DNA of 64,000 nucleotides from Deltaproteobacteria bacterium (GTDB lineage Bacteria > Desulfobacterota > Desulfobulbia > Desulfobulbales > SURF-16): assembly GCA_016219175.1 (NCBI GenBank), contig JACRCD010000076.1, positions 1-64,000 of the forward strand. Direction: 5' to 3'. The notes below the pieces were generated by a model, which searched no databases, had not been told where the DNA came from, and worked only from the letters and a program-made list of their open reading frames with translations. Numbering within the stretch: the first letter of the stretch is position 1; every line of letters begins with the position of its first letter. Position numbers and translations under genes: made by a program. Of the stretch, positions 27,143 to 48,139 are shown in pieces.

Positions 27143-27411
27143 ATTCTTGATGAACTCGTAAAAAGTCGGCGACAAAGCCCGGATGGCTAACCAGCATGGC
27201 TGGACCAGGCTGGCCAGCCACAACGAACCATGAAAGTCCGGCGCTCCGGCATGGTCGGTTTCGAGCACCGTCGACTTTCATATAAAGTAACAAAATTCGA
27301 CATACAAGGCGTAGTGTATTTTTGAGAGTGAGGCTATACATGTGGTATGCCGAACGAACAAAAATGCGCTACAACGCAGTAGATCGGATTTTTTACGACG
27401 CCATCATTCTT
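27143..27411 (+). mobile_element. MITE-like element copy 1, with nested 96-bp insertion
   Basis: The element spans 27149-27405 and is flanked by perfect 6-bp direct repeats ATTCTT (27143-27148 and 27406-27411). Its ends are GATGAACTCGTAAAAA and the inverted TTTTTACGACGCCATC. Without an insertion at about 27191-27286 it would be 161 bp, like the other three copies. The insertion contains arms TGAAAGTC and GACTTTCA and the 12-bp palindrome GGCTGGCCAGCC. It sits directly before the miaA start codon. Confidence 0.85.
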
Positions 27412-27574
27412 TAATCATTGCAGTAAGTAGATGACAGAGTCCCTTATTTACACTATATTTGCTCTTTTTTCAGCCGGTGTTCCGGTTTTATTTATGCCAA
27501 ACACAATTTATTGCCTATTTTTTCCCGCATCCTTTTTTTTGAAGCACCATTAAAGCGGCTAAGGAGATCACATC

Positions 27575-28654
27575 ATGCCAGAGAGAATTTATAATTTCAG
27601 CCCCGGCCCCGCCACCCTGCCCATTGAGGTGTTGCATCAGGCAGCCAAGGACATTGTCAATTACAATAACAAAGGAATCGGCCTCATTGAAATGAGCCAT
27701 CGCAGCAAGGATTTCATGGCGATTACCGCGGAGGCGGAAAGTCTGGTCCGGGAACTGCTGGCCATCCCGCGGAACTATAAGGTTCTCTTTCTCCAGGGCG
27801 GGGCCTCAACCCAGTTTGCCATGGTTCCCATGAATTTACTTGGGCCCGGCAAAAAAGGGTCCTATCTGAACACCGGGGTCTGGGCCAAGAAGGCGATCAA
27901 GGAGGCGAACATCGTCGCCAGCGCCCATGTCGCCTACTCAAGCGAAGGGACCAAATATGATCATGTTCCCTCTGATGGCGACTATACCGTTGATCCGGCT
28001 GCCGAGTACCTCTATTTTGTCTCAAACAACACCATTTACGGCACCCAGTTTCAAGTCATGCCGAAATCGGAAAAAATGCTGGTTTGCGACATGAGTTCGG
28101 ACATCATGTCCCGCCCCTTTGACATCGCCCCTTTCGGCCTGGTTTTTGCCGGAGCCCAGAAGAATATCGGTCCGGCGGGTGCCACCCTGGTCATCGTCAG
28201 GGAAGACCTGCTTGACCGGGCGCCGGAGACCGTGCCCACCATGTTCCGCTATAAAATCCATGCGGAAAACGGTTCAATGTTCAATACCCCCCCCTGCTTT
28301 GCCATTTACACCATCGGCCTGGTCTGCAAATGGCTGAAAAAAATCGGGGGGATAGAGGCCATTGAAAAAATCAACCGGGAAAAAGCCGCCATTCTCTACG
28401 AGGCCATTGACGGTACCGATTTTTACCGGGGGCATGCCAGAAAGGATTCCCGTTCATTGATGAATGTCACCTTCAATCTGCCGACTCCCGAGCTTGAAGC
28501 CAGGTTTATCCAGGAAGGGGCAAAACGCGGCCTGGACGGCCTGAAGGGACATCGATCCATTGGCGGCATCAGGGCCTCGATCTATAACGCCTTCCCGAAG
28601 CAGGGGGTCATTGATCTTGTTGAATTCATGAAGGATTTCGAGAAAACAGCCTGA
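27575..28654 (+). CDS. serC: phosphoserine aminotransferase
   Basis: This pyridoxal-phosphate enzyme converts 3-phosphohydroxypyruvate to phosphoserine in serine synthesis, and can also act in pyridoxal synthesis. The N-terminus IYNFSPGPATLPIEVL is typical. The PLP lysine is in FAGAQKNIGPAG, and GGIRASIYNAFP is near the C-terminus. The 359 residues are normal. A strong AAGGAG site lies 8 bp before the ATG. It is followed 5 bp later by a radical SAM gene. Confidence 0.96.
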   Translation: MPERIYNFSPGPATLPIEVLHQAAKDIVNYNNKGIGLIEMSHRSKDFMAITAEAESLVRELLAIPRNYKVLFLQGGASTQFAMVPMNLLGPGKKGSYLNTGVWAKKAIKEANIVASAHVAYSSEGTKYDHVPSDGDYTVDPAAEYLYFVSNNTIYGTQFQVMPKSEKMLVCDMSSDIMSRPFDIAPFGLVFAGAQKNIGPAGATLVIVREDLLDRAPETVPTMFRYKIHAENGSMFNTPPCFAIYTIGLVCKWLKKIGGIEAIEKINREKAAILYEAIDGTDFYRGHARKDSRSLMNVTFNLPTPELEARFIQEGAKRGLDGLKGHRSIGGIRASIYNAFPKQGVIDLVEFMKDFEKTA

Positions 28655-28659
28655 TAACA

Positions 28660-29529
28660 GTGAACTACGAGGGCATCATCATCCGGCCTCCCAGCGAGGC
28701 CGACTCCATCATCCTCCAGGTCACCGTCGGCTGTTCCCACAACAAGTGCACCTTCTGCGGGACGTATAAGGGTACCCGTTTCCGCATCAAGGATGACGAA
28801 GAGGTAAACCAGGATATCGATTTTGCCGCAACCTACTGCAAACGCCAGCAAAGAGTCTTTCTGGCGGATGGGGACGCCCTGATCATCCCCCAGCGCCGGT
28901 TGGTCGCCCTCTTTAGCCGGATCAGGGGGAAGCTGCCGTGGGTCAACAGGATCAGCCTTTACGGCAATGCCAAAGCCATTTTGCTGAAATCGGCAAGGGA
29001 GCTGAGAGAACTAAAAGAGCTTGGCCTTGATCGGGTGTATATGGGACTTGAAAGCGGAGCCGACAGGATTCTCAAGGATATCGGGAAAGGCGCGGACGCA
29101 GCCAAAATGATCAGGGCCGGCAGCCAGGTTAAGGAGGCCGGCCTGTTTCTTTCCCTGACCGTCCTTCTCGGTATTGGCGGCACGGAACATTCCCGGGAGC
29201 ATGCCGAGGAAACCGGTCGCGTCGTTTCCGCAATGTCCGCCAACCAGATTGCGGTCCTGACCCTCATGCTCCTTCCGAACACTCCTCTTTATCTGCTTGA
29301 GAAATCGCAGAAATTCAACATTCCAGACCAGAGCGGCATGCTCAGGGAATTACGGTTGATGGTGGAAAATATCACCATAACCAAGGCCCAGTTTCAGGCC
29401 AACCATGCCTCCAATTATCTGCCCATCAATTGCCGTCTCAGCCGGGACAAGGAAACGGTTCTGGCGGCAATCGATCAAGCCCTGGCCGGTGAAAAAAGGC
29501 TGACCCCCGAGCATTTACGAGCGTTGTGA
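28660..29529 (+). CDS. radical SAM protein with CX4CX2C cluster motif
   Basis: This 289-residue protein has a GTG start 5 bp after serC. The cluster motif is TVGCSHNKCTFCGTYKG, with four rather than three residues between the first two cysteines. It is a recognised variant in one group of uncharacterised radical SAM proteins. RISLYGNA, YMGLESGADRIL and LLGIGGTEHSREHAEET follow the order of Elp3/MiaB-like TIM barrels. No auxiliary cluster domain is seen. The substrate is unknown; coupling to serC may be only positional. Confidence 0.82.
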   Translation: MNYEGIIIRPPSEADSIILQVTVGCSHNKCTFCGTYKGTRFRIKDDEEVNQDIDFAATYCKRQQRVFLADGDALIIPQRRLVALFSRIRGKLPWVNRISLYGNAKAILLKSARELRELKELGLDRVYMGLESGADRILKDIGKGADAAKMIRAGSQVKEAGLFLSLTVLLGIGGTEHSREHAEETGRVVSAMSANQIAVLTLMLLPNTPLYLLEKSQKFNIPDQSGMLRELRLMVENITITKAQFQANHASNYLPINCRLSRDKETVLAAIDQALAGEKRLTPEHLRAL

Positions 29530-29661
29530 CCGCCCCGCTCCCGCTTTCCCTCTCATTCCGATTCCAAAGCAAAAGTAAAACGCGAAGGCAAGCGAGCAGC
29601 GACGCGACAGTATAATCAAGTACGGCAAGGAGCCGCGCAGCGCAGCCGATTCAGTTCAATG

Positions 29662-29675
29662 CCCCCTTGAGGGGG
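29662..29675. terminator. GC hairpin after the serC operon
   Basis: CCCCC and GGGGG are separated by TTGA, in the 177-bp convergent gap between the radical SAM gene and the response-regulator kinase. No T tract follows, so termination would be weak. The rest of the gap is low in structure. Confidence 0.35.
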
Positions 29676-29706
29676 ACAAAGTTATACAAATGATTTGGAA
29701 TTGGAA

Positions 29707-30906
29707 TCACTTGGGCAGGGAGATCTCAAACCTGGCGCCCTGCCCCGGCTTGTTGATCATCTTCAGTTCTCCGTTGAATTTATGGATCAGCTGCCGCGAG
29801 ATGCTTAATCCAAGTCCGGTTCCCTGCCCCGCGGGTTTTGTGGTGAAAAAAGGATCGAAAATGTTCTCTTCGGCCATTTGATCGATGCCGCCGCCATTGT
29901 CTTCAATGGCGAGGCAGACCCTGTCGTTCTGCTGATAAATGCAGATATTGACCCTGGGCTCAAAAAAGTCATCCTCCTCCTTCCTTTCAACCAGGGCATA
30001 CCTGGAGTTGGACAACAGGTTGAGCAGCACCTGTTCAAACTCTGACTGAACAGCTTTTACCGGGGGGGCGTTGTCATCAATGTCAACATCAATGGTGATG
30101 CCGTGGTTGAGAAACTGCATACGGCAGAGCGACAGGGTATCCTGCAGCACATCCTGCAGGTAAAAACGGCATATCTCCTGGGAAGGGTGGCCCAAGGTGC
30201 GCACATGGTCAATAAGACGGGAAATGCGGCTGACATTATCAAGAAGGATCTGCACATCACCCAGCATTTTTTCCGTTGTCAACAGCCCCCGCCGATTGAG
30301 GAGCTGCCAGCCCTGAACCGTGATGGAGATGACATTTAAGGGCTGGTTGATTTCATGGGCCATGGAGGTGGCCATCTCGCCCAGTGCGGCCAGCCTTCCG
30401 CCGTGCACCTCGGCGGCCTGGCGGAACTCGCTTTCTTTTTTGGCCTGCAGCAGTTTTAACGCTTTATTCAGCTGGCCGGTTCGCTCCTCAACCATTTTTT
30501 CAAGATGAGCGCGATGTTGCCTCAATTCCAGATGGGTGCGTATGCGGGCTTTGCCAATGGCGGCATTTACCGGTTTGACCAGGTAGTCGACAGCGCCGAG
30601 GGCAAGCCCCTTGGCTTGGTCCGCATCTTCAGCCCGCGCCGTGACAAAGATTATGGGAATGGTGGAAAATTTCGCATCCTTCTTCAGCACGCGGCATAAC
30701 TCATAGCCGTCCATGACCGGCATCATGATATCAAGCAGAATCAGATCCGGCGATTCGGCATTGACAAGTTTCAGGGCCTCGGCGCCGCTTGTGGCGGTGA
30801 TGACGAAGTAGTCTTCCTCCAGCTTATTGGCCAGGTTTTTTATGCTTGCGGGAAAGTCATCAACAATAAGTATTTTTCCCTTAGGTGACCCCTGACTCAC
30901 ACGCAT
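29707..30906 (-). CDS. receiver-histidine kinase fusion protein
   Basis: This 399-residue cytoplasmic signalling protein has an N-terminal receiver domain (about 10-130, Asp in LILLDIMMPVMDG), a coiled-coil linker with an ERTGQLNKAL segment (about 135-170), a HisKA domain with the phospho-His in MATSMAHEINQPLN (about 183), and a HATPase_c domain with IEDNGGGI, FFTTKPAGQGTGLGLSIS. The receiver-first order suggests it is controlled by another kinase. No membrane segment is seen. The single-domain receiver gene at 31234 on the opposite strand is a possible partner. Confidence 0.92.
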   Translation of the reverse strand: MRVSQGSPKGKILIVDDFPASIKNLANKLEEDYFVITATSGAEALKLVNAESPDLILLDIMMPVMDGYELCRVLKKDAKFSTIPIIFVTARAEDADQAKGLALGAVDYLVKPVNAAIGKARIRTHLELRQHRAHLEKMVEERTGQLNKALKLLQAKKESEFRQAAEVHGGRLAALGEMATSMAHEINQPLNVISITVQGWQLLNRRGLLTTEKMLGDVQILLDNVSRISRLIDHVRTLGHPSQEICRFYLQDVLQDTLSLCRMQFLNHGITIDVDIDDNAPPVKAVQSEFEQVLLNLLSNSRYALVERKEEDDFFEPRVNICIYQQNDRVCLAIEDNGGGIDQMAEENIFDPFFTTKPAGQGTGLGLSISRQLIHKFNGELKMINKPGQGARFEISLPK

Positions 30907-31233
30907 GCCTCTGATATGTTTTCGAGATAAGCCGTTGTCAATAAATTACTGTAACACACCATGCGTGGCAACGGCATAAGGGGCCGTACAGATGATATCA
31001 AATCTGTAATGGTTATTTTATAACGGCCCTAATGATATTTAAAAGTAATTTAATCTAAAAATTTAACCATGTCATTAAGTTACATTTTTTTCTTGTAAAG
31101 TTATGACGTTTTCACATAACATAGACCTCAATTGTGTCACACTTTGTTGATTCCAGCGCAGACAAGCCCAAGCAGGAACATTTCCAAGAATTTCATGGCA
31201 TAAATTCCATTCCCTTTACCGGATCATAGTGTT
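30907..31233. other. divergent intergenic region between two signalling genes
   Basis: This is AT-rich non-coding DNA of 327 bp that must hold promoters for the flanking divergent genes. A small hairpin ACGGC-N7-GCCGT (30971-30987) is the only structure noticed. No gene is supported. Confidence 0.4.
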
Positions 31234-31656
31234 ATGCTTCAAGATCAATACCGAATAATGATTGTCGATGATGAACCGGACATTGCCGAAGGAATTGCAG
31301 ACACCATGTCGGTGCTGACAGGGCACACCTGCCATCCTTACAGTAATGCCCTTCATGCCCTGGCAGTCTTCAAAACCCGCCCCTACCACCTGGTGCTTAC
31401 CGACTTGACCATGCCGGGGCTGGGAGGATTTGATCTGCTGGCGAAAATGAGAAAATTGCATCCTGTTACGGATTTTATAGTTATTACCGCCCATAAGTCA
31501 AAGGAAGTTGTTTATAATTCCCACTTTCTTGGAGCCACAAACATTTTCTATAAACCTCTCAATATTGAAGAGCTGGAAACGGCTGTTATTCAGTGCTACC
31601 AGAAATTCATCCTCTGGCAACAACGCTTCCAGGAAGTCTCCTTTATCAATCAGTAG
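31234..31656 (+). CDS. single-domain response regulator
   Basis: This 140-residue receiver domain has acidic pocket residues in IMIVDDEPDI, phospho-Asp in LVLTDLTMPGLGGFD, the Thr-equivalent in FIVITAHK, and the conserved Lys in IFYKPLNIEEL. No output domain is present, so it acts by protein contact or phosphotransfer. It lies 330 bp from the divergent receiver-kinase gene and 23 bp before rlmN. Confidence 0.88.
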   Translation: MLQDQYRIMIVDDEPDIAEGIADTMSVLTGHTCHPYSNALHALAVFKTRPYHLVLTDLTMPGLGGFDLLAKMRKLHPVTDFIVITAHKSKEVVYNSHFLGATNIFYKPLNIEELETAVIQCYQKFILWQQRFQEVSFINQ

Positions 31657-31679
31657 CCTGTACAGACAGATATCTCAGC

Positions 31680-32735
31680 GTGCCGAACGTGCATCACTCT
31701 CAAAAAACCGATCTCAGAAATCTCACCAGGGACGAACTGACTGCCTTTGTCGTTGCTCGCGGTCTCCCCTCCTTCAGGGCCAAACAGATATTCCCCTGGC
31801 TCTACCGCCCCGGTATTACGGATTTTTCCGAAATGACCGATCTTTCCAAAGATCTGCGGAACACCCTGACGGAGGAGGCTTTTTTCAGCCGCCTTCTTCC
31901 GGCTGCTAAAGAAACATCAAGCGACGGAACGGTAAAATATGGATTCCTGCTGGAAGATGGGAAGGTGATTGAAACCGTGCTCATTCCGGAAGACGGCAGA
32001 CATACCCTCTGCGTTTCCTCCCAGGTCGGCTGCGCCATGGACTGTTCCTTCTGTCTGACCGGCACCATGGGGTTTTCCAGAAATCTGAGTTGCGCGGAGA
32101 TGGTCAATCAGGTCTTCACGGTTGCCGATGACCTGCACAAAAACGAGCAGGGAGCCATCAACAACCTGGTGTTCATGGGCATGGGCGAGCCTCTGGCAAA
32201 TTTCAACAATTTGGTAAAGGCGCTTACCATCCTGACCGATGAACTTGGGTTTGACTTCCCGGACCGGAAAATAACGGTCTCCACCTGCGGCCTTGTCCCG
32301 CAAATTCTTGAGCTGGGACAACTGTTCAAGGTTAATCTGGCCATATCTCTCCACGCCGCGGACAATGAAACTCGAACTCGTCTGATGCCGATCAATGCGC
32401 GATATCCTTTGGAAAGTTTGCTTGAGGCGTGCCGCCAATATGCCCTGAGCAGACGTAAACGGATCATGTTTGAATACATTCTTCTGCAGGGCATCAACGA
32501 TTCCGATCAGGATGCCCTGAGGCTGGCAAAACTTCTGCACGGTATCCCGGCGAAGATCAATCTGCTGCCCTGCAATGAGACACCCGAACTCCCGTATAAA
32601 AAACCGGATCAGAAGCGAATCGACTCCTTTCAGGAAATCCTGAAAAGAAAAGGCTATACGGTTCTTGTCCGCTCCAGCCGCGGAGCGGACATCTCCGCGG
32701 CCTGCGGTCAGCTTGCCGCCAAGTCATCTACCTGA
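31680..32735 (+). CDS. rlmN: dual-specificity 23S rRNA/tRNA adenosine-C2 methyltransferase RlmN
   Basis: This radical SAM enzyme methylates A2503 of 23S rRNA and A37 of some tRNAs. The CX3CX2C motif is in GCAMDCSFCLTGTMGFSRNL, preceded by VSSQVG. VFMGMGEPLANFNN and ISLHAADNETRTRLMPIN are family landmarks. The mono-methyl cysteine region is near the C-terminus (SSRGADISAACGQL). The GTG at 31680 is chosen because the 29 residues upstream overlap the receiver gene and are unlike the family; it gives 351 residues. A GTG at 31689 is possible. Confidence 0.94.
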   Translation: MPNVHHSQKTDLRNLTRDELTAFVVARGLPSFRAKQIFPWLYRPGITDFSEMTDLSKDLRNTLTEEAFFSRLLPAAKETSSDGTVKYGFLLEDGKVIETVLIPEDGRHTLCVSSQVGCAMDCSFCLTGTMGFSRNLSCAEMVNQVFTVADDLHKNEQGAINNLVFMGMGEPLANFNNLVKALTILTDELGFDFPDRKITVSTCGLVPQILELGQLFKVNLAISLHAADNETRTRLMPINARYPLESLLEACRQYALSRRKRIMFEYILLQGINDSDQDALRLAKLLHGIPAKINLLPCNETPELPYKKPDQKRIDSFQEILKRKGYTVLVRSSRGADISAACGQLAAKSST

Positions 32736-32741
32736 AAGAAC

Positions 32742-33173
32742 TCAGTGTCTGTGGTGGCCTCTGCCATGTCTGTGTTCATGCCGCCAATGATGATCTCCCT
32801 GGTGGTCGTCATACCCTCTTCTCCACACGGCCGGTACTGGATAGTAATAACCGTAGGCCGGCGCGACTATGACTTGCACGGGCCGGGGCGGAGGAGGAGC
32901 CACAATGACTTCAACCGGGCGCCAGTCCCGGCTGCCGCCGTAATAACGGTTCGACACGTAACCGCCTCTATCCATTTCGCTGCCGACCACATACCCCAGA
33001 ATCCCTCCGACAGCCGCTCCGATCAGCGTCCCTTCCGTGTTTCGGCCGATACCCTGGCCGATCAAGGCGCCGCCTGCCGCTCCGGTCACGGCCCCCAGGG
33101 AGGAATTACCCGCTCCGGCGCCTGACGTCATGCAGAGCAGAATGAGTGTGACAAGAACGATGATGTTTTTCAT
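32742..33173 (-). CDS. glycine-zipper 2TM-domain envelope protein
   Basis: This 143-residue protein has a signal-like N-terminus (MKNIIVLVTLILLCMTSGAG). It is followed by a glycine-zipper region of the SlyB/OmpA-like 2TM type (GAVTGAAGGALIGQGIGRN and GTLIGAAVGGILGYVVGSEMD). A Pro-rich linker and a His/Arg/Gly-rich tail (HHWRHEHRHGRGHHRH) end the protein. Related proteins sit in the envelope and can form small pores or stabilise the outer membrane. The tail could bind metal ions. It is a single gene, convergent with rlmN. Confidence 0.82.
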   Translation of the reverse strand: MKNIIVLVTLILLCMTSGAGAGNSSLGAVTGAAGGALIGQGIGRNTEGTLIGAAVGGILGYVVGSEMDRGGYVSNRYYGGSRDWRPVEVIVAPPPPRPVQVIVAPAYGYYYPVPAVWRRGYDDHQGDHHWRHEHRHGRGHHRH

Positions 33174-33276
33174 GATGACCTCCTGACTGTTTATGGCAAA
33201 ACTTCTCCCCTGTCTGAGTCAGATGGTATAACAAGAGGGGGTGGAAAAATAGAGGACATCGGGGCAAACGGAGCCG

Positions 33277-33304
33277 CATATCGACCCGACATCGGGTCGA
33301 TATG
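33277..33304. promoter_or_regulatory. perfect 13-bp inverted repeat, operator or terminator candidate
   Basis: Arms CATATCGACCCGA (33277-33289) and TCGGGTCGATATG (33292-33304) are exact complements with a 2-base centre. The repeat lies about 100 bp upstream of the glycine-zipper gene and 45 bp downstream of the small HTH/zinc-ribbon regulator gene. No T run follows closely on either strand, so an operator fits better than a terminator. Confidence 0.5.
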
Positions 33305-33348
33305 GCCTTATTTTCGTGGGGATTGACAACAAGAAGGATGGAAACCGA

Positions 33349-33633
33349 TTATTGCTGAATAAAATAGGAGGCCATACGGATATGGCCCCCCTTGCAGCGC
33401 GGGCAACGACCCGGCCTGTTGAAACGATGACGGTCCGCAAATGAAAACCCACAGCCCAGGCAGGTGTACGGTCTGACCAGCAGCCTTTTCCCCTGGGCGG
33501 TCAAGGTCCGGTTGATATGATCAAGATGCTCATAGACCTCTTTTTCACGTATTGACAACGCCTGTGATATTTCCAGGGCGTTCAGTTCATTATCGCCAAG
33601 CAGAGCGATTATCTCCCGGCGAATTGTCGACAA
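33349..33633 (-). CDS. small transcriptional regulator, HTH plus zinc ribbon
   Basis: This 94-residue protein has an N-terminal winged-helix-like segment (LNALEISQALSIREKEVYEHLDHI in two parts, about 16-45). A zinc ribbon follows with CLGCGFSF and CPRCKGG (about 58-82). This layout matches the COG3357-type predicted regulators. It lies 5 bp after the unknown gene at 33639 and 40 bp before an unusual perfect inverted repeat. Confidence 0.75.
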   Translation of the reverse strand: MSTIRREIIALLGDNELNALEISQALSIREKEVYEHLDHINRTLTAQGKRLLVRPYTCLGCGFSFADRHRFNRPGRCPRCKGGHIRMASYFIQQ

Positions 33634-33638
33634 AATCC

Positions 33639-34001
33639 CTACATCCTGATTTTTGCCTCGGTTTTCTTCGGGTTCTTTTCCAGATGCCTATAGTGTTTTA
33701 CAGCCGTTTCCGTAAAACGTCCCACCAGATTCGGCAGGTCCGAGGTGTTCCAGACATAGGTGAAATCATCCTTGTCAAGCAGGACCGTACTGATAACAAA
33801 TGATGGTTGCTGATCAGGCTGCAGGGAAATGTCCTCAAAGTCCAGGTCTATTTTGCCACCGAATACCTGGCGGAAAAGATCCTGCATTGTGTAGACGTAA
33901 AATTTTTTCACGTCTTCGGTGGATTCAGCGGAACCGATTTTCCTTCTGTACTCCGGCAGCAATTCATTTTCAATTTTTGTAAACGAAAGTTGCATTGTCA
34001 T
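33639..34001 (-). CDS. hypothetical protein in the rtcB operon
   Basis: This 120-residue protein was not recognised. It is mixed alpha/beta in appearance: an N-terminal SFTKIENELLPEYRRKI segment, a central hydrophobic strand SFVISTVLLD, and a basic C-terminal tail (KKTEAKIRM). It does not look like archease, the usual small partner of RtcB. A good AAGGAGG site (34009-34015) precedes the ATG. It lies 37 bp after rtcB and 5 bp before the zinc-ribbon regulator gene, so the three are probably one transcript. Confidence 0.75.
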   Translation of the reverse strand: MTMQLSFTKIENELLPEYRRKIGSAESTEDVKKFYVYTMQDLFRQVFGGKIDLDFEDISLQPDQQPSFVISTVLLDKDDFTYVWNTSDLPNLVGRFTETAVKHYRHLEKNPKKTEAKIRM

Positions 34002-34038
34002 GGCAATTCCTCCTTATCAATATTTTAACTATTTCATT

Positions 34039-35217
34039 TCAACCTTTTATCACGGCAAGAGGACGCAATTCAACGATAACTTCAACAAGATCAATCTGAT
34101 TCTCAATCACCTCGTCAATATTTTTGTAAGCTCCGGCGGCCTCGTCAAGATCACGAACACCGCGGACGGCATGGATAATGCCTTGATCTTCAAGTTTTTT
34201 TTGTTCCTGATGCAGATCAAGCTGCCGCTGGGCCTGTTTTCTTCCCATTTTCCGGCCGGCGCCGTGGGCGCAGGACTGAAAACTTTCGGGATTTCCCCGC
34301 CCCCTGACAATATAACTCGGGCTTCCCTGGGAACCGGGAATAATGCCGATTTCGCCCTCCCTGGCACTGGTGGCGCCCTTGCGGTGCACCATGACATTCT
34401 TATGAAAGTGGGTTTCCAGGGCAGCATAGTTATGGGCGATGTTGATGACCGGTTCAAACACCACGGATGGGACAACCGAAAGCAGCGCCTCCTTTACCCG
34501 CTCCATCATCAATTTTCTGTTGGCATAGGCAAACTCCACGCAGTAGCGCATTTCCCTGAGGTATCGTTGCGCCGTTTCCTTATCCAGGGGCAAAAAAGCC
34601 AGTTGCCATTTTTCAGGGATTCTCGATCCCCATTTTCGATTCAAGTCCATGGCCAGCCGGTTATAATGATTTGCCACCTTAAAGCCGAGATTCCGGCTCC
34701 CCGAATGGATCATAAGCCAGACATGACTGTCGTTTCCCTGCTGTATCTCAATAAAATGATTGCCGCCCCCCAGGGTGCCGATCTGGGTCAACGCATTGCC
34801 ATACTCCTCGGCCACAACAGGGAAATCCGACAGGGGTCTCCCCGCAGTTTGGGGCATCAACGCCGGATCCTGCTTTTTCTTGTGATGTTGAAAGCCCAGG
34901 GGCACCGTCTTTCTGATTCCGGCAAGAACGGCTTTTATCTTTTCCGTGGCAAGAGAGGTAAGCGAGGTCTTGACCGCGCACATGCCGCAGCCGATGTCGA
35001 CCCCGACCGCGTTTGGAATAACGACTTCCTCAGCGGCCATTACCCCGCCGATGGGCATGCCATAACCCTGATGGGCATCGGGCATCACGGCGATATGTTT
35101 GAAGACAAAAGGAAGATTGGCGAGATTTCTGGCCTGGTCAAGGGCCCCGGCCTCGATATCATCAAGCCATAGTTTGATCGGCTGCTTTTCGGTATTGACA
35201 ACACGCTTCATGGTCAA
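34039..35217 (-). CDS. rtcB: RNA-splicing ligase RtcB
   Basis: This GTP/Mn-dependent ligase joins RNA 2',3'-cyclic phosphate or 3'-phosphate ends to 5'-OH ends. The 392 residues contain the metal-site motifs VGVDIGCGMCAVKT, GTLGGGNHFIEI and HSGSRNLGFKV. The guanylylated histidine is in SCAHGAGRKMGRKQA. It is slightly shorter than E. coli RtcB. It is the first gene of a run with an unknown gene and a small regulator; RtcR and RtcA are not present. A MITE-like element lies about 100 bp upstream. Confidence 0.95.
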   Translation of the reverse strand: MTMKRVVNTEKQPIKLWLDDIEAGALDQARNLANLPFVFKHIAVMPDAHQGYGMPIGGVMAAEEVVIPNAVGVDIGCGMCAVKTSLTSLATEKIKAVLAGIRKTVPLGFQHHKKKQDPALMPQTAGRPLSDFPVVAEEYGNALTQIGTLGGGNHFIEIQQGNDSHVWLMIHSGSRNLGFKVANHYNRLAMDLNRKWGSRIPEKWQLAFLPLDKETAQRYLREMRYCVEFAYANRKLMMERVKEALLSVVPSVVFEPVINIAHNYAALETHFHKNVMVHRKGATSAREGEIGIIPGSQGSPSYIVRGRGNPESFQSCAHGAGRKMGRKQAQRQLDLHQEQKKLEDQGIIHAVRGVRDLDEAAGAYKNIDEVIENQIDLVEVIVELRPLAVIKG

Positions 35218-35304: not shown

Positions 35305-35477
35305 ATAATTGATAAACTCGTAAAAAGTCGGCGACAAAGCCCGGATGGCTAAGTAACAAAATTCGATATACAAGGCGTAGTGTATTTTTGAGAGCGAGGC
35401 CATACATGAGGTATGCCGAATGAACAAAAATGCGCTACAACGCAGTAGATCGGATTTTTTACGACGCCATCATAATT
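35305..35477 (+). mobile_element. MITE-like element copy 2
   Basis: A 161-bp element at 35311-35471 is flanked by perfect direct repeats ATAATT (35305-35310 and 35472-35477). The left end is GATAAACTCGTAAAAA and the right end TTTTTACGACGCCATC. It differs from the other copies at only a few positions. It lies between divergent-looking ends: upstream of rtcB and downstream of the pseudokinase gene. Confidence 0.85.
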
Positions 35478-35515
35478 ATATATTAGGCATTTTCGTTTCC
35501 CGGCAAAAGTGATGG

Positions 35516-39446: not shown

Positions 39447-41111
39447 ATGCTCTGCGAGTTACACATAAGCAATCTTGCCCTCATTGAAAAGCTCTCTCTT
39501 TCCTTTGCCAACGGTCTTTCCGTCCTGACCGGAGAAACCGGGGCCGGCAAATCCATTATCCTGCAGGCCATCCATCTGCTGTCGGGCGGCAAGGGTTCAT
39601 CTTCCTGGGTGCGAAGCGGCGCGGAAAGCACGACCATTGAAGCTCTTTTCGAGATAAGCGGCGACCACGGACTGGTGATTGACACCATGAAGGAACAGGG
39701 CTTTGATTGCGACGGGACCATCGTCTTAAAAAGGGTTTTGTCGCAGAGCGGACGCAGCCGTTTTTATATCAACGGCAGCCCCGCCACGGCAAAAATCATC
39801 GAGGAACTTACCGAGGATCTGTTCAGCGTGGCCAGCCAGCATGATCATCAGCAGCTGCTCTCCTCGCGCTATCATCTTGATTTTATCGATGCCGTGGGCG
39901 ATCTTTGGCAACAGCGGCTTGATTTTTCCAGACAATACGAGACCTGGCAGCTGAAAAAAAACGAATATGAAAATCTGCGTCATAAAGAGACGGAAAAGGA
40001 GCAGCGTAAGGATTTCCTCTCCTTTCAGGTGCGGGAAATCCTGGATGCCCATATCATCCCTGATGAGGACGAAAGGCTGGCCCTGGAAAAACAGCGTTTA
40101 AAAAGCGCGGATGATCTCACCCGGCTGGGCCGGAAAAGTTATACGCTTCTTTATGACTCAACCGACCCCATGGCCCAGGCCCGCAAAAATCTGCGGCAGA
40201 TGGCCGAACTTGACGCGACGGTTTCTCCCCTTGCCGAGGACATTGCCGGTCTCACCTTTCAGCTGGAAGAAAAATTGCTTCTGCTGCGTGACTATGCGGA
40301 CTCCATTACCAATGACCCGCACGCGCTTGATGCCGTCATGGCGCGGCTGGATGTTCTGCAGCAATTGAAAAGAAAATACGGTCCCGGCTTGTCTGACGTC
40401 ATCAGTCATGGCAGCAGCGCCTCCAGGGAGCTTGAAGAGCTTGAAGAACTCGATGTGCGCCTGGAAACGCTGGAAAAAGAGCTCGGTAGAAGCGAAAAAG
40501 AACTGCTGGCCGCAGCCCTATCACTCTCCGGGGCGCGGCAAAAAACCGCGGCAATGCTTGCTGAAACCATCAAGAACGAGCTGCATTCACTTTGTCTTGA
40601 CCGGGCGCTTTTTGAGATCAGGTTTTCCGAAGAAGAGCCGTCCATATCTTCCCTGGGGCGTACCGGCGCGGATCATCCGCTTTTCATGTTTTCGGCAAAT
40701 CCCGGCGAACCGGTCAAACCCATTGCCCAGATCGCCTCCGGCGGCGAATTGTCACGGCTGCTGCTGGCCCTCAAATGTCTGCTGGCCCGCAAGGATCAGG
40801 TGGAAACCGTCATCTTTGATGAAGTGGACACCGGCATCAGCGGCAAGGCCGCCGAATCGGTGGCCAGAAAGATCAAGGAACTGGCAAGCCATCATCAGGT
40901 CATCTGCATCACCCACCTGGCCCAGATCGCCTCCTGCGCCCGTGACCATTACCGGGTCAGCAAACATGTCAGCGACGACCGCACCCACACCTCCATCGTC
41001 CAGCTTGATAAAGCAGAGAAGGTCATGGAACTGGCAGGCATGCTTGATGGGGATTCGGTCACGCCCCAGACCTTGGCCTATGCCGCGGAACTGATCAACA
41101 GAAATCAATAA
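39447..41111 (+). CDS. recN: DNA repair protein RecN
   Basis: This SMC-like ATPase acts in double-strand break repair. The 554 residues carry the Walker A in LTGETGAGKSIILQA (about 28-42), long central coiled coils (about 160-380), the signature IASGGELSRLLLALK (about 430-445) and Walker B in VIFDEVDTGISGKAAE. Length is normal. It starts without a clear ribosome site and is followed 16 bp later by a PP-loop gene. Confidence 0.96.
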   Translation: MLCELHISNLALIEKLSLSFANGLSVLTGETGAGKSIILQAIHLLSGGKGSSSWVRSGAESTTIEALFEISGDHGLVIDTMKEQGFDCDGTIVLKRVLSQSGRSRFYINGSPATAKIIEELTEDLFSVASQHDHQQLLSSRYHLDFIDAVGDLWQQRLDFSRQYETWQLKKNEYENLRHKETEKEQRKDFLSFQVREILDAHIIPDEDERLALEKQRLKSADDLTRLGRKSYTLLYDSTDPMAQARKNLRQMAELDATVSPLAEDIAGLTFQLEEKLLLLRDYADSITNDPHALDAVMARLDVLQQLKRKYGPGLSDVISHGSSASRELEELEELDVRLETLEKELGRSEKELLAAALSLSGARQKTAAMLAETIKNELHSLCLDRALFEIRFSEEEPSISSLGRTGADHPLFMFSANPGEPVKPIAQIASGGELSRLLLALKCLLARKDQVETVIFDEVDTGISGKAAESVARKIKELASHHQVICITHLAQIASCARDHYRVSKHVSDDRTHTSIVQLDKAEKVMELAGMLDGDSVTPQTLAYAAELINRNQ

Positions 41112-41127
41112 CAGGCTCATCTTGTCA

Positions 41128-42144
41128 ATGAATAAACAGCGCCATACCGCAATCGCCCTCTTTTCCGGCGGACTGGACAGCATCCTTGCCTGCCGGGTTG
41201 TCGCCGAGCAAGGGGTAAAGGTCAAGGCCATCAAATTCGTCACCCCGTTTTTTGACTATGATCTGCTAACAACAACCGCCAGGTACCAAAAAAAAATCAG
41301 GGACAAGTACGACATCGATGTCGAGGTCAGGGATATCACTGATCCTTATCTGCGCATGCTGCATGATCCGCCCCACGGTTACGGCAAGCATTTCAACCCG
41401 TGCATTGACTGCAAGATTCTCATGATCAGCGAGGCCAAAAAACTCATGGCCGATTATCACGCCTCATTTATCATCACCGGCGAAGTCGTGGGTCAGCGTC
41501 CCATGTCGCAGCGCAAGGACACCCTGCGCGTCATCGAACGGGACAGCGGCACGGATTCCCTGCTGCTTCGCCCTCTCTGTACCCAATGCCAGAAGCCCAC
41601 CGCCGTGGAACTGGCGGGAATAATCGACCGGGAGAAATTGCCCGGCATCAGCGGCCGCGGCAGAGCACCGCAGAGAGAACTCGCGGCGAAATTCGGCATC
41701 ACCGACTACCCCAATGCCGCGGGCGGCTGCGTGCTGACCGACAAGAACCTCGCGCTGCGCATCCAGGGCTATTATCGGGAGACAACCGAAATCAACAAAG
41801 AGGATATCCGCTTTCTGCTGGCGGGCCGGCAATTCAGATTGCCTCACGGCGGCTGGCTTGCCATGGGGCGTGACGAGGAAGAAAACAACAAGGTGGCAAG
41901 GCTCAGGCAGTCCGGCGATGTGATTTTGCGCCTGAGCGACAGGCCGGGTCCGACAGCTCTGCTTCGTCATTCCAGGCATGGTGAGGATATCCGTTTAAGC
42001 GCGGCGCTGCTGGTCCGATACGGCAAAAAAATCCCCGGCGCCCCGCCGGATGTTGGCGTAACAGTGACGGAAGATCAAACAGAAACAATGGTATACTCCC
42101 CTGCCCTGCCCGATGACCAGGTTGCGACCTTGGCCGCTCTTTGA
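41128..42144 (+). CDS. PP-loop ATPase, tRNA-thiolase-like (MnmA/ThiI-related)
   Basis: This 338-residue protein has an N-terminal PP-loop in ALFSGGLDSILA (about 11-22). A Cys pair follows in HFNPCIDCKILM, like the NPCxxC of MnmA, and a second pair in LCTQCQKP. The C-terminus differs from MnmA, with RGRAPQRELAAKFG and a GGCVLTDKNLALR segment. Proteins of this kind are often named tRNA methyltransferase or ThiI-like in Desulfobacterota. A sulfur-transfer role on tRNA is a family inference, not shown. ATG at 41128 is preferred to the TTG at 41122. It lies directly upstream of tRNA-Thr. Confidence 0.75.
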   Translation: MNKQRHTAIALFSGGLDSILACRVVAEQGVKVKAIKFVTPFFDYDLLTTTARYQKKIRDKYDIDVEVRDITDPYLRMLHDPPHGYGKHFNPCIDCKILMISEAKKLMADYHASFIITGEVVGQRPMSQRKDTLRVIERDSGTDSLLLRPLCTQCQKPTAVELAGIIDREKLPGISGRGRAPQRELAAKFGITDYPNAAGGCVLTDKNLALRIQGYYRETTEINKEDIRFLLAGRQFRLPHGGWLAMGRDEEENNKVARLRQSGDVILRLSDRPGPTALLRHSRHGEDIRLSAALLVRYGKKIPGAPPDVGVTVTEDQTETMVYSPALPDDQVATLAAL

Positions 42145-42155
42145 TAAGAGAAATC

Positions 42156-42184
42156 TTGACACCTTGGGCAACAGTTGCTAAAAG
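42156..42184 (+). promoter_or_regulatory. promoter of tRNA-Thr
   Basis: TTGACA (42156-42161) and TAAAAG (42179-42184) are separated by 17 bp; the predicted start is a few bases before the tRNA. Confidence 0.6.
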
Positions 42185-42197
42185 ATGGCAACCTTGC

Positions 42198-42273
42198 GCC
42201 ACCTTAGCTCAGTTGGTAGAGCATCGGATTCGTAACCCGAAGGCCGCCGGTTCGATCCCGGCAGGTGGCTCCA
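42198..42273 (+). tRNA. tRNA-Thr (anticodon CGT)
   Basis: A full cloverleaf is seen. The acceptor arms are GCCACCT and AGGTGGC, the D arm is GCTC/GAGC, the anticodon loop is TTCGTAA with CGT at its centre, the T arm is GCCGG/CCGGC, and CCA is encoded (42271-42273). The discriminator is T. The last anticodon-stem pair (positions 31-39) is A opposite C, a mismatch that E. coli tRNA-Thr(CGT) does not have. Confidence 0.93.
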
Positions 42274-42408
42274 GTAAACTTTCCCGGTCTTTAAGCCACA
42301 AAAAAATTCCCTACCCCCATTGTCCCTGCGATTAATTTTCCGGCACATACCACCTGTTTTTTCCTTACATCTACTTGACATCGACTTTCTTTTGCATGAT
42401 ACTATGTT

Positions 42409-42581
42409 TATTTTGGTGAACTCGTAAAAAGTCGGCGACAAAGCCCAGATGGCTAAGTAACAAAATTCGATATACAAGGCGTAGTGTATTTTTGAGAGCG
42501 AGGCTATACATGTGGTATGCCGAACGAACAAAAATGCGCTACAACGCAGTAGATCGGATTTTTTACGACGCCATCAATTTT
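42409..42581 (+). mobile_element. MITE-like element copy 3
   Basis: A 161-bp element at 42415-42575 is flanked by TATTTT (42409-42414) and AATTTT (42576-42581), a 6-bp target duplication with one mismatch. The left end is GGTGAACTCGTAAAAA and the right end TTTTTACGACGCCATC. It lies 140 bp after tRNA-Thr and 109 bp before the CheB-CheR gene. Confidence 0.82.
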
Positions 42582-42689
42582 CGATTAATGGTGTTGCCCC
42601 TGGCCGGTCCCGTGCTTAATATTTTGCCGGCTGGCCGGGAGACGAAACTTTTCGAAAAATTTTCATCCTGGCTGCACAGGAGACCTATA

Positions 42690-45600
42690 ATGACCAGAAA
42701 GAAGAGTTCCAGCGCCAATCAAGGGCCCCTGGAATCCGCACAGGGTGTGGCGGACAAAACCGCTCAAGCCAAGCCGCCCGGAATGAAGGCAAAAGGGAGG
42801 CAGGACGAAAATGCCCCTCCGCAGGTTCATTTTCCCATCGTCGGCATCGGGGCCTCGGCCGGAGGGCTCTCGGCCTTCGAGGCCTTTTTTTCCGGCATGC
42901 CCGCCGCCGGCCCAGGCATGGCTTTTGTCCTGGTGCAGCACCTGGCCCCTGACTACAAAAGCATCCTCGCCAGCCTGATCCAACGCTTCACCCCCATGCG
43001 GGTCTTCGAGGCCGCGGACGGGATGATCATCAAAGCAAACACCGTTTACGTCATCCCGCCTAACTTCGACATGGCCTTGCTTAACGGCGCGCTGCATCTG
43101 TTACCACCGGCGACGCCGCACGGCCAGCGTCTGCCGATTGATTTTTTCTTTCGCTCCCTGGCCCAGGATCAACAGGAAAAAGCGATCTGTATCGTGCTCT
43201 CCGGCACCGGCAGCGACGGCACGCTGGGGGTGCGGGAGGTCAAGGGCGAGGGAGGCATGGTCATGGTTCAGCAACCCGAATCCGCCGAGTACGATGGCAT
43301 GCCCCGCAGCGCCATCGCCACCGGCCTGATGGACTATATCCTCCCTCCGGCCGAGATGCCGGCCAAACTGCTTCTCTACGCCTCCCATCTCTGCAAAAAA
43401 AAGGTCAAAAAGATTGTTCACCCCTCCCCCCCGAGGGGAGATGTCTATAATAAAATCTTCATTCTGCTGCGGGATCAAGTCGGCCACGACTTTTCCGAAT
43501 ACAAAACGAACACCGTTATCCGCCGGGTTGAGCGGCGTATGCTTGTCCACCAGATCGAGCGCCTTGAAGAGTATGTCCTCTTTCTGCAGAAAAACCCGCT
43601 GGAGGCGCAGGCGCTTTTTCGCGACCTCCTGATCGGCGTCACCAGTTTTTTCCGGGACCCGGAAGCCTTTGCGGCGCTTGCAACCTACATCGGCCCAAGG
43701 CTTTTTGCCGGCAGACCGGCCGACGCCCCCATCCGGGTCTGGGTCCCGGCCTGTTCCAGCGGCGAGGAAGCCTATTCCCTGGCCATACTGTTGCAGGAGC
43801 AAATGGAGGAGCTGAAACGATACTTTACGGTGCAGATCTTCGCCACCGACATTGACAGCCGGTCCATTGAAACGGCCCGCTGCGGCCTCTATCCGGCCAG
43901 CATTGCCGGCGATGTTTCCCGGGACCGGCTGGCGCGGTTTTTCACCCTGCAGGCGGACGGCGGCACCTACCGCATCAACAAAGTCATTCGCGACATGCTG
44001 GTTTTCTCCGAGCAGAACCTGATCAAGGATCCACCCTTTTCCAGGCTCGATCTGGTCAGTTGCCGCAACCTGCTGATCTATATGAACGGCGCGCTGCAGA
44101 AGAAGCTGATCCCCTTGTTCCATTATGCCCTGAATCCGGGAGGGCTGCTCTTTCTGGGCACTTCCGAGAGCGTGGGCGATTGCCGCGATCTTTTTACCCC
44201 CCTGGATCGCAAGGCAAAACTCTATTTCAGCAAAAAAAACGGCGCGCAGGGCGAACAGCGTCTGGTATTGCGGAAATTTATCAAGCCCTTACCGGCGCAG
44301 GCTCTCCCGCGAGACACAGGCCTGACAGATGCCCAGAGGTTGTTGACGCGGCAGGAGTTGACGGAGCGGGTTCTCCTGCACTGCTACTCACCGGCCAGCG
44401 TGCTGGTAAGCAAAAATGGCGAGATCCTCTATATCCACGGCCGTACCGGCAAATACCTGGAAATGGCCGCGGGCGATATCGGGGTGAATATTCTGAAAAT
44501 GGCCCGTGAAGGTTTGCGGCGTGACCTGACCACTGCCCTGCATACGGCCGTCACCCATAAAGAGCCGGTATTCCGCTCTGGTCTGCGGGTCAAGACCAAC
44601 GGAGATTTCAGCCGGGTTAATCTGACGGTGCATCCGGTGGCTCCCGGTTCCGCGGAGGGCTGCGACGCTTCGGACCCCCAAGGCGCGCACAGCGTCACCG
44701 AATTGAAGACGGGCCGCCAGGTGACGGCTGATCCCTTTCAGTACCTGGTTGTTCTGGAGGAAGTCCAGGCCGCTGAAGGGGCAAGCGCCGGAAGAGCCGA
44801 TATCGCGAATTCGCTGGAGCCTACTGATACTCAAGATTCTCAAGCCCTCATCACCGCCTTGCGCCAGGAACTGCAGGCCAAGGAGGAATACCTGCAGAGC
44901 ACCACCGAGGAACTCCAATCCTCGAACGAGGAACTGGAGACCTCCAAGGAAGAGCTGCAATCGATCAACGAGGAGCTGACCACGGTCAACGCCGAACTGC
45001 AAAACAAGGTGTTTGAACTGCAGCGGGCCAATAACGACATGAACAACCTGCTGGCCGGCACCGGCGTCGGCACCGTCTTTGTGGACAAACAGCTGCTTAT
45101 CCAGCGCTTCACCCCCGCCGCCACCCAGTTGATCAACCTGATCCCGACGGATGTGGGACGGCCGGTAGGCCATACGGTGACCAATCTGGTGAATTATAAC
45201 AGCCTGGAGGAGGACGCCAAATCCGTGTTGAACAGCCTGGCTCCGATGGAAATCGAGGTGCAGACCAAGTCCGGCGCCTGGTTTCTGATGTGCATCCGGC
45301 CCTACCGGACTCAGGAAAACGTGGCCGAAGGGGTGGTGATCAACTTTGTCGAGATCTCCAAGATGGTCGCCGCCCAAGAGTCCTTACGCCGCCTGGCGGT
45401 GGTTGTCAACGATTCCCACGATGCCGTCACCCTGCAGGATCTGCAGGGCCGCATTCTGGCCTGGAATAACGCGGCCCAAAGGATGTACGGCTGGAGCGAG
45501 CCCGAGGCGCTGGCCATGAACATCCGCGAGCTGATCCCGGCGAACCGGCGTAAGGAGGCGCTGGAAAAACTTCACCAGCTCATCCGGGCCGAAACCCTGG

Positions 45601-45743
45601 AGCCTTACCAAGATCAACGGCTCACCAAGGACGGCCAGCGCCTGGCGGTGTGGATAACCGCCACCGCCCTGCTCAACAAGACCGGCCATGTTTACGCCAT
45701 TGCCACCACGGAACGTCATCACGGCCTGAAATATCCGGATTAA
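42690..45743 (+). CDS. CheB-CheR fusion with C-terminal PAS domains
   Basis: This 1017-residue cytoplasmic signalling protein has a CheB-type methylesterase domain at about 48-235: active Ser in VGIGASAGGLSAFE, His in LVQHLAPDY, Asp in GSDGTLGVREV. A CheR-type methyltransferase follows at about 250-515: GVTSFFRDPEAF, the SAM site VPACSSGEEAYSLA, and VSCRNLLIYM. A coiled coil of TTEELQSSNEELETSKEEL type (about 730-785) and two PAS domains complete the protein. The ATG at 42690 is chosen because AGGAG lies 8 bp upstream; the longer frame begins inside the MITE-like element. It lacks a kinase domain; the hybrid kinase 37 bp downstream is the likely partner. Methyl-accepting substrates are not in the window. 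Confidence 0.93.
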   Translation: MTRKKSSSANQGPLESAQGVADKTAQAKPPGMKAKGRQDENAPPQVHFPIVGIGASAGGLSAFEAFFSGMPAAGPGMAFVLVQHLAPDYKSILASLIQRFTPMRVFEAADGMIIKANTVYVIPPNFDMALLNGALHLLPPATPHGQRLPIDFFFRSLAQDQQEKAICIVLSGTGSDGTLGVREVKGEGGMVMVQQPESAEYDGMPRSAIATGLMDYILPPAEMPAKLLLYASHLCKKKVKKIVHPSPPRGDVYNKIFILLRDQVGHDFSEYKTNTVIRRVERRMLVHQIERLEEYVLFLQKNPLEAQALFRDLLIGVTSFFRDPEAFAALATYIGPRLFAGRPADAPIRVWVPACSSGEEAYSLAILLQEQMEELKRYFTVQIFATDIDSRSIETARCGLYPASIAGDVSRDRLARFFTLQADGGTYRINKVIRDMLVFSEQNLIKDPPFSRLDLVSCRNLLIYMNGALQKKLIPLFHYALNPGGLLFLGTSESVGDCRDLFTPLDRKAKLYFSKKNGAQGEQRLVLRKFIKPLPAQALPRDTGLTDAQRLLTRQELTERVLLHCYSPASVLVSKNGEILYIHGRTGKYLEMAAGDIGVNILKMAREGLRRDLTTALHTAVTHKEPVFRSGLRVKTNGDFSRVNLTVHPVAPGSAEGCDASDPQGAHSVTELKTGRQVTADPFQYLVVLEEVQAAEGASAGRADIANSLEPTDTQDSQALITALRQELQAKEEYLQSTTEELQSSNEELETSKEELQSINEELTTVNAELQNKVFELQRANNDMNNLLAGTGVGTVFVDKQLLIQRFTPAATQLINLIPTDVGRPVGHTVTNLVNYNSLEEDAKSVLNSLAPMEIEVQTKSGAWFLMCIRPYRTQENVAEGVVINFVEISKMVAAQESLRRLAVVVNDSHDAVTLQDLQGRILAWNNAAQRMYGWSEPEALAMNIRELIPANRRKEALEKLHQLIRAETLEPYQDQRLTKDGQRLAVWITATALLNKTGHVYAIATTERHHGLKYPD

Positions 45744-45780
45744 CCGAGCACGATAATTAAAAATATTTTCGAGACCAATC

Positions 45781-47865
45781 ATGTCAAAAAAAGAGGGCAT
45801 TTCCGATCAGAAGAAGGTTTTGCGCCGCGGGGCGCGGGAAAAAAACAAAGCCCCGGCCGGTCCCAAAAACGACCAGGAGACGTCGCAAATACTTTACGAA
45901 CTGCAGGGACATCAGGTCGAACTGGAGATGCAAAACGATGAATTGCGCCGCACCCAGCAAGAACTGGAGACCTCGCGGGCCCGTTATTTCGACCTCTACA
46001 ATCTGGCCCCGGTCGGCTATTGCACCATCGATCAACAGGGGCTGATCCTGGAAGCCAATCTTACGGCCGCGGCCCAGCTCGGCGTGGCGCGAGAGGCGCT
46101 GGGCGCCCAGTCGATAAGACGTTTTGTCTTTGCCGAGGACCAGGATGTTTACTCACACAGATGCCGACAACTCTTTGAGACCTGCGCCCCTCAGGTCTGC
46201 GAATTGAGACTGCAACGTCCCGATGCCGCCGTTTTCTGGGCGCGAATGGAGGCCAACCTCGCCCATGGTCCGGACGGTTTGCCTTTATGCCGCCTCGTCA
46301 TCAGCGACATCACCGACCGAAAACGGATCGAGGAGGCCCTGCGGATGAGTGAGGAGAAATATCGCACCGTGGCGGATTTCACCTATGACTGGGAATTCTG
46401 GCTCGGGCCGGACAATAATTTTCTTTACTGTTCACCCTCTTGCCTGCGGATCACGGGCTATCCGGCCGAGGCCTTTGACCGGGATCCCGCCCTGCTGCGC
46501 ACCCTTGTCCACCCCGATGACCTGGCCGTGTATGACCAGCACTTCCGGACCGCCAAGAACCGGGAAATGAGCCCGGAGTTTGAATTCCGTATCAGCCACG
46601 TGAATGAATCGACAGGATGGCGCTGGATCGCCCACGTCTGTCAACCTGTCTATGATGACAAAGGCCGGTTCCTGGGTATCAGGGGAAGCAATCGGGACGT
46701 TACCGGGCGCAAGCGTCTGGAGGCCGAGGTCGCCAAGGCCAGAAATCTTGAATCCCTTGGCGTCCTGGCTGGCGGCATCGCCCATGATTTCAACAACCTG
46801 TTTCAGGCGCTTCTAGGCAATCTCGCCCTGGCCAAGATGTACACCCCGGAATCAAGCAAGGCCTTCCTGTTTCTGGAAAATGCCGAGCAGGTATCCGCAT
46901 TGGCCACCAAGCTCACCAGCCGGCTCATCGCCTTCTCTTCCGGCGGTTTGTCACTCATGATAAATATCCAGCCGTCCAGTCACATCAGGGAGGAGGCAAC
47001 TGCTACCCTGGGAAGTTCCGGACTGGCAGCCGAGTTTGACCTGGCCGATGACCTCTGGCTCATCAATGTCGATGCCGCCCAATTCCGCCAGGTCATAAAA
47101 CAGATGGTGCTGAACGCCATGGAGTCCATGCCCCCGGGATCAGGCGGCAAGCTAAGGATAATGGCTGTCAATGAGGCTTTACAGGCACATCCCGGCATGT
47201 CTCCAACCCTTGCCCCCGGCAACTACGTAAGAATTTCAATCCAGGATCAGGGTTGCGGGGTCAGCAGCGAGAACCTGCCCCGCATCTTTGATCCCTATTT
47301 TTCCACCAAGCAGCGCGGCTGCCAGAAGGGGTTGGGCCTTGGGCTCGCCCTGTGCGATACGATCATAAGGAAGCACGGCGGAGCGATCACCGTGAAGTCC
47401 CAACCAGATAAAGGCGCCACCTTTCATATTCACATCCCGGCCGTTGTCATTGCCGCCAGAAAGACGGAGACAACAAAGGATCGGAAAACCCATGGTCCGC
47501 GAATTCTTTTTATGGACGACGACCTTGGGGTGGTGCAGGTAACCAGAAATTTCTTGAGACTTTCCGGTTACCGGGTTGACTCGACCCTGGACGGCAATGC
47601 GACCATCGCCGCCTATCAGGAAGCGCGCGCCGCCGGCGACCCCTATGCGGCGGTCATCCTTGATCTCATGATCCCCGGCGGCATGGGCGGTAAGGAAGTC
47701 ATCGCCGTTCTCAGGCAAATTGATCCCGAAGTGAAGGCCATTGTCTCCAGCGGCTATGCCGATGATCATGCCATGACCGATTTCGCGGACTACGGATTTG
47801 TTGCAGCCTGCGCCAAACCGTATCAGCTCACGGACATGAAAAAAATTCTGGACCGCTTCGTTTGA
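45781..47865 (+). CDS. hybrid histidine kinase PAS-PAS-HisKA-HATPase-REC
   Basis: This 694-residue protein has no evident membrane segment. A charged N-terminus and coiled coil (about 30-70) precede PAS domains at about 75-185 and 195-310. The phospho-His is in LAGGIAHDFNNLFQALLG (about 337), a HDFNN-type kinase. The HATPase_c domain has IQDQGCGVS and KGLGLGLALCDTI. A C-terminal receiver domain (about 575-694) has LFMDDDLG and phospho-Asp in AVILDLMIPGGMG. The N-terminal HQVELEMQNDELRRTQ helix resembles the coiled coil of the upstream CheB-CheR protein, which suggests contact. The two genes form one unit between inverted MITE copies. Confidence 0.92.
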   Translation: MSKKEGISDQKKVLRRGAREKNKAPAGPKNDQETSQILYELQGHQVELEMQNDELRRTQQELETSRARYFDLYNLAPVGYCTIDQQGLILEANLTAAAQLGVAREALGAQSIRRFVFAEDQDVYSHRCRQLFETCAPQVCELRLQRPDAAVFWARMEANLAHGPDGLPLCRLVISDITDRKRIEEALRMSEEKYRTVADFTYDWEFWLGPDNNFLYCSPSCLRITGYPAEAFDRDPALLRTLVHPDDLAVYDQHFRTAKNREMSPEFEFRISHVNESTGWRWIAHVCQPVYDDKGRFLGIRGSNRDVTGRKRLEAEVAKARNLESLGVLAGGIAHDFNNLFQALLGNLALAKMYTPESSKAFLFLENAEQVSALATKLTSRLIAFSSGGLSLMINIQPSSHIREEATATLGSSGLAAEFDLADDLWLINVDAAQFRQVIKQMVLNAMESMPPGSGGKLRIMAVNEALQAHPGMSPTLAPGNYVRISIQDQGCGVSSENLPRIFDPYFSTKQRGCQKGLGLGLALCDTIIRKHGGAITVKSQPDKGATFHIHIPAVVIAARKTETTKDRKTHGPRILFMDDDLGVVQVTRNFLRLSGYRVDSTLDGNATIAAYQEARAAGDPYAAVILDLMIPGGMGGKEVIAVLRQIDPEVKAIVSSGYADDHAMTDFADYGFVAACAKPYQLTDMKKILDRFV

Positions 47866-47935
47866 GCGACCGGGTACAGGGCGGCAGAGGAATATTTGCT
47901 TAAAAAATTCTATCGTAAAAAATGCACACTATTGT

Positions 47936-47954
47936 AATATAATTGTATTATATT
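47936..47954. other. AT-rich hairpin after the hybrid kinase gene
   Basis: AATATAAT (47936-47943) and ATTATATT (47947-47954) pair perfectly around a 3-base loop. It is too weak for a standard terminator. It lies 12 bp before the target duplication of MITE copy 4. Confidence 0.3.
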
Positions 47955-47966
47955 GTTGTCATAGAC

Positions 47967-48139
47967 AATTTTGATGGCGTCGTAAAAAATTCGATCTACT
48001 GCGTTGTAGCGCATTTTTGTTCGTTCGGCATACCGCATGTATAGCCTCACTCTCAAAAATACACTACGCCTTGTATATCGAATTTTGTTACTTAGCCATC
48101 CGGGCTTTGTCGCCGATTTTTTACGAGTTCATCAATTTT
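47967..48139 (-). mobile_element. MITE-like element copy 4 (inverted)
   Basis: A 161-bp element at 47973-48133 is in reverse orientation to copies 1-3. It is flanked by perfect direct repeats AATTTT (47967-47972 and 48134-48139). Ends are GATGGCGTCGTAAAAA and TTTTTACGAGTTCATC. It lies 107 bp after the hybrid kinase gene. Confidence 0.86.

Follow-up and report, generated by a model that had tools for sequence, protein, structure and literature searches.

A MITE-type element family with a strand-polar conserved fold, recently multiplied in one species and recurring across its phylum, probably the Desulfobacterota

A stretch of 64,000 nucleotides from a deltaproteobacterial assembly (GCA_016219175.1, contig JACRCD010000076.1, positions 1 to 64,000; hereafter the window) carries four closely similar palindromic repeats, raising the question of what kind of element they represent and by what means they came to be where they are. 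The original prediction described them as a family of 161-bp MITE-like elements, about 96-98% alike and flanked by short direct repeats. We found all four copies at the predicted positions (Table 1), with copies 3 and 4 being 96-97% identical to copy 2 and every flanking repeat as described, including the 5/6 match at copy 3. The palindromic folding likewise claimed for them was borne out by copy 2, whose single-strand fold is stronger than those of its dinucleotide shuffles (z -3.9). Copy 1 is indeed a member of the family, but its 257 bp proved to be a composite: its positions 1-42 and 137-257 match the 161-bp type, with the intervening 96 bp belonging to another repeat. The longest reading frame of a CheB-CheR-PAS gene (window 42492-45743) begins within copy 3, so that an automatic start call there would mislead.

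Table 1. Positions of the element copies, their target duplications and the nested module (window coordinates, except in the last line)
Feature	Position	Strand	Remarks
Copy 1	27149..27405	+	257 bp; 161-type element split by 96-bp unrelated repeat
Copy 1 right end	27390-27405		TTTTTACGACGCCATC
Copy 1 left target duplication	27143..27148		ATTCTT; partner 27406-27411
Copy 1 right target duplication	27406..27411		ATTCTT
Nested 96-bp module (in copy 1)	27191..27286	+	boundaries ambiguous by 2 bp
Copy 2	35311..35471	+	161 bp
Copy 2 left target duplication	35305..35310		ATAATT
Copy 2 right target duplication	35472..35477		ATAATT
Copy 3	42415..42575	+	161 bp; mutated left end, GGTGAACTCGTAAAAA
Copy 3 left target duplication	42409..42414		TATTTT; one mismatch vs right partner
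Copy 3 right target duplication	42576..42581		AATTTT
Copy 4	47973..48133	-	161 bp, reverse orientation
Copy 4 left target duplication	47967..47972		AATTTT
Copy 4 right target duplication	48134..48139		AATTTT
96-bp module standing alone	G000:C92 ~7888-8158 (L121)		split there by 161-bp copy

A search of the whole genome showed that the element is present well beyond the window, in more than 100 copies: 114 right ends were recovered at ≤2 mismatches, against none with the reversed control pattern, and 104 of the genome's right ends are exact. The very low divergence of the right ends is due in part to the copies having been searched by that end; the ≤2-mismatch scan gives the fairer view, and its mismatches lie nearly all in the four bases outside the right end. 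The assembly consists of 97 pieces, with several breaks falling at these repeats. About 100 places were extracted with their flanks. The catalogue comprises 122 distinct right ends, and in 88 cases there is also a left end and a flanking repeat matching at 5/6 or 6/7 bases; these 88 two-ended copies take in a few accidental pairs (e.g. L221). Exact duplications of 6 bp flank 61 of them and exact duplications of 7 bp a further 15 (together 76/88), whereas left and right flanks taken from different copies match over 6 bp in 1.2% of cases. The 6-bp AT-rich target duplication originally proposed thus stands, but as one of either 6 or 7 bp. The reconstructed target preference is itself palindromic, YAWNNWTR, the 7-bp class having one N more. 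The principal length clusters are at 161 bp (43 copies), 179-180 bp (16) and 162 bp (7).

A typical copy combines a left end of about 33 bp, GATGRNNTCGTAAAAAGTC, whose inner part is variable, with a 127-128-bp palindromic core beginning GATGGCTAAGTAAAAAGT and a nearly invariant right end, TTTTTACGACGCCATC. The end motif recurs in a left extension of about 24-35 bp. The terminal inverted repeats GATGAACTCGTAAAAA and GATGGCGTCGTAAAAA are identical at 13 of 16 positions. Forms of 179 bp and longer derive from the insertion of small hairpins into the core. One locus (L273) holds a 126-bp element directly bounded by its own exact 7-bp duplication, so that mobility seems to require no more than the core. 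Palindromes unrelated to this core are found between the same ends as well, among them dRS3-like CGTC-1 dimers (L159, L242, L264 and L298) and a CACAGAG hairpin (L147). In some elements of 132-133 bp that have 6-7-bp duplications, the core consists of dRS3-like units arranged head-to-head; in loci chosen for the ends, 5 of 10 dRS3/CGTC dimers are framed in this way.

The 96-bp repeat (CCAGCATGGCTGG...GTCGACTTTCATATAAA) is nested in some copies, copy 1 among them, and is itself host to one copy, which provides an empty site internal to the genome: the uninterrupted module has ATAAAA once, and the nested insertion has it on both sides (CCATAAAAGTCC in C6; CCATAAAA, the element and then ATAAAAGTCC in C92). 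Comparison with other species of the genus, which had been set beforehand as a possible refutation, left the claim of target duplication intact, with sites found empty in congeners. We prepared 16 joined flanks, the query spanning the first 11 and most of the twelfth, and congener matches ran through the junction at six sites (L027, L051, L203, L211, L215 and L216) with 73-83% identity. Junction alignments were read at four of these. At L211 the relative has a single ATCTTT where the element here has it on both sides, which is clear; at L051 the relative has one copy of the target, clear but diverged; at L216 and L203 the relatives' alignments span the junction with gaps nearby. The flanking repeats at the nested and congener-empty sites are target duplications. 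Given that all testable sites are empty in the congeners, and that exact right ends number 0-2 in them against 104 here, the family multiplied after the species split. The 161-bp copies stand at a median of 5/161 bases from their consensus, so the burst is recent on the scale of species, as had been proposed, though not necessarily ongoing.

Relative to genes placed with a simple hexamer gene model, 68 of the 88 copies are intergenic, compared with 26% of random control positions in the same flanks. One copy lies just upstream of the gene for ATP synthase subunit b, at a site empty in three congeners. A reading as immobile transcription terminators or other regulatory hairpins under host selection would account for this intergenic preference and for the T-runs at both hairpin ends, but is scarcely credible given the insertion shown by target duplications and empty sites and the few copies between convergent genes (4 +|-) against those between divergent ones (16 -|+); it is refuted as a full explanation, with a secondary effect on transcription being possible.

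The short, non-coding, repeated structure (typically 161 bp, with at least 114 right ends), the terminal inverted repeats, the duplications and the empty sites in congeners all agree with the MITE-like interpretation. We accordingly favor, with a probability of roughly 0.82, the view that the element is a MITE-type non-autonomous DNA transposon. Under this proposal the shared GATGNNNTCGTAAAAA ends would most likely be bound by a transposase supplied in trans, and their joining to a YAWNN(N)WTR site with a stagger of 6 or 7 bp would duplicate the target. We infer DDE-type chemistry from the fixed-length duplications and the palindromic target; mobilization in trans, likewise inferred, by a candidate DDE-type transposase is the most likely mechanism.

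The prediction that the copies are non-coding and moved by an enzyme encoded elsewhere holds in that respect, but the mobilizing element itself was found neither in the genome nor in more than 100 related loci. Profile searches of the genome with three large DDE families, DDE_Tnp_1, Transposase_mut and rve (PF01609, PF00872 and PF00665), and with ISNCY_1 (NF033593) gave no match, and the same four profiles in relatives recovered no loci with these ends, except for small elements beside unrelated genes. The full-length insertion sequence with the same ends that had been suggested as a search target was likewise found neither in the genome, nor among the 117 matches listed from related records, nor within the 400 kb covered of a complete relative. 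Two candidate end pairs were rejected: one of 1.8 kb (L234), which had the look of a full IS, consists of a pair of distinct hairpin copies on either side of unrelated genes, and one of 591 bp (L328) of a normal 150-bp copy and an accidental motif.

What fits less readily with a trans-acting transposase is the hairpin itself, as a fold of one strand is unexpected if only the double-stranded ends mattered. In 24 diverse sequences a 33-pair fold has 91.5% of its cells paired, and 16 of the 33 pairs show compensatory change; for most measures none of 500 shuffles scored as high, and slid partners pair in 28-49%. With a geometry drawn from Watson-Crick pairs only, G-U cells outnumber A-C cells by 172 to 49, and columns favoring G-U outnumber those favoring A-C by 34 to 11 (sign test p = 0.0008), statistics that are weakened by the shared ancestry of the sequences and that fall to 42 versus 24 (p = 0.036) for low-frequency pair changes alone. 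Of 28 diverse cores, 25 form a better fold as the plus than as the minus strand, and among 16 others (seven from one genome, two identical and one entered reversed) the plus strand is the more stable in 13. Since a double-stranded cruciform should lack such polarity, these patterns suggest that selection on one single strand is likely.

The same evidence could be read as that of a mobile structured RNA, or of an element that can move only if one strand of fixed polarity, as RNA or ssDNA, is folded, with the hairpin being a working part and more than fused long terminal repeats. Besides the ancestry effect, template switching between the arms of a palindrome can yield compensatory changes without function, orientation at co-directional sites is unbiased relative to the neighboring genes (19 versus 17), and no family among the curated covariance models of Rfam matches the element; we therefore consider this explanation rather unlikely. 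A broader possibility, which we regard as quite improbable, is that one old phylum-wide transposition system recognizes the short GATGNNNTCGTAAAAA ends and carries any long palindrome between them, including CGTC-REP dimers, provided that a single strand of fixed polarity folds, its enzyme belonging to a class that has yet to be connected with elements like these.

A strand-specific fold would also suit a single-strand transposase, and the genome has eight Y1_Tnp matches, which brings into consideration REP/BIME-type palindromes moved by RAYT (Y1 HUH) transposases. RAYT-type insertion is not known to leave a target duplication, against the 76/88 copies that have one here. Moreover, 30 sampled Y1 loci yielded one distant motif match (L359) and no right ends, seven regions covering the genome's own Y1 genes yielded one weak 78-bp model match only, and the Y1 loci examined carry other repeats. 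A REP-type hairpin would span 20-40 nt and carry a GTAG or CGTC tag, whereas the main element has a 127-bp palindrome and GATG ends, the CGTC dimer being confined to a rare second core. RAYT genes do not lie between such ends; the association was rejected, and we hold this alternative to be highly improbable. Some other repeats and genes were also observed: two direct repeats of 161 nt that are 93% alike and adjoin a Y1/RAYT gene (L363, 26-186 and 862-1022), where, despite their matching length, the present element's end motif did not turn up; an IS91-like Y2 transposase gene next to one for a tyrosine recombinase, in the vicinity of Y1/RAYT-like genes (L503, 6104-8007; G000:C10); and, in the L112 flank (query 2308-2383), a 40 + 36-nt repeat (CCGTTACGAAATAACATGGCCAT...) that is multi-copy in the genus and directly adjoins an element copy.

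Among relatives, 21 of the 58 examined have exact right ends, and a scan for GGACTTTTTACGACGCCATC recovered at least 117 stretches, the records listed bearing Desulfobacterota-type or broad names such as Pseudomonadota; the phylum is therefore probably the Desulfobacterota. Isolated right ends were set aside as evidence of the element; at least some are coding coincidences (e.g. in TrmFO at L146), as TTTTACGACGCCATC spells F-Y-D-A-I. A covariance model built from 24 diverse copies recovers the structure in 56 of the 148 genomes sampled from the phylum, in 40 of 110 genera, and other genera have elements of 90-304 bp with the same ends and 6-7-bp duplications. Matches in viral contigs were mostly chance coding hits, with a few remnants, and none was found in the plasmids searched.

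Among known repeats, the ERIC elements are intergenic imperfect palindromes of about 127 bp with internal insertion variants, for which we know of no transposase. The present family resembles them in palindrome length, insertion variants and the lack of a known transposase, but differs in its unrelated ends, its host group and its 6-7-bp duplications. Chunjie of Geobacter uraniireducens, a bacterial MITE of 178-235 bp, is, as described in a review (PMC10969869), similarly short, non-coding and mostly intergenic, as are bacterial MITEs generally, with terminal inverted repeats, direct repeats, tens of copies and variable length; set against that description, the present family is distinguished by its phylum-wide spread, its conserved fold and the absence of any parental insertion sequence found. 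CGTC-1 corresponds to dRS3 (PMC3733652), the neisserial repeat ATTCCC-N8-GGGAAT (PMC3898611), and the CGTC REPs are reported to have no dedicated transposase, with dimers described inside other palindromes (PMC3733652, 2013). Head-to-head dRS3-like dimers likewise form some of our cores, but here they sit within ends that make 6-7-bp duplications, and the main core, an ATACAT palindrome, is not a REP. Neither end sequence is described as a repeat in the papers listed by our literature search; what is new here is that the family is spread across the phylum, that its conserved fold has a polarity, and that cores have been exchanged while the ends stayed the same.

The elements thus represent a MITE superfamily common to many genera of one phylum, probably the Desulfobacterota, for which no parental insertion sequence was found and which has undergone a recent burst in one species. 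Since some dimers sit within ends that create target duplications, the family offers a candidate, testable answer to the question left open in PMC3733652 of how CGTC REP dimers move, and the one-strand bias of the hairpin makes a role of folded RNA or ssDNA directly testable.
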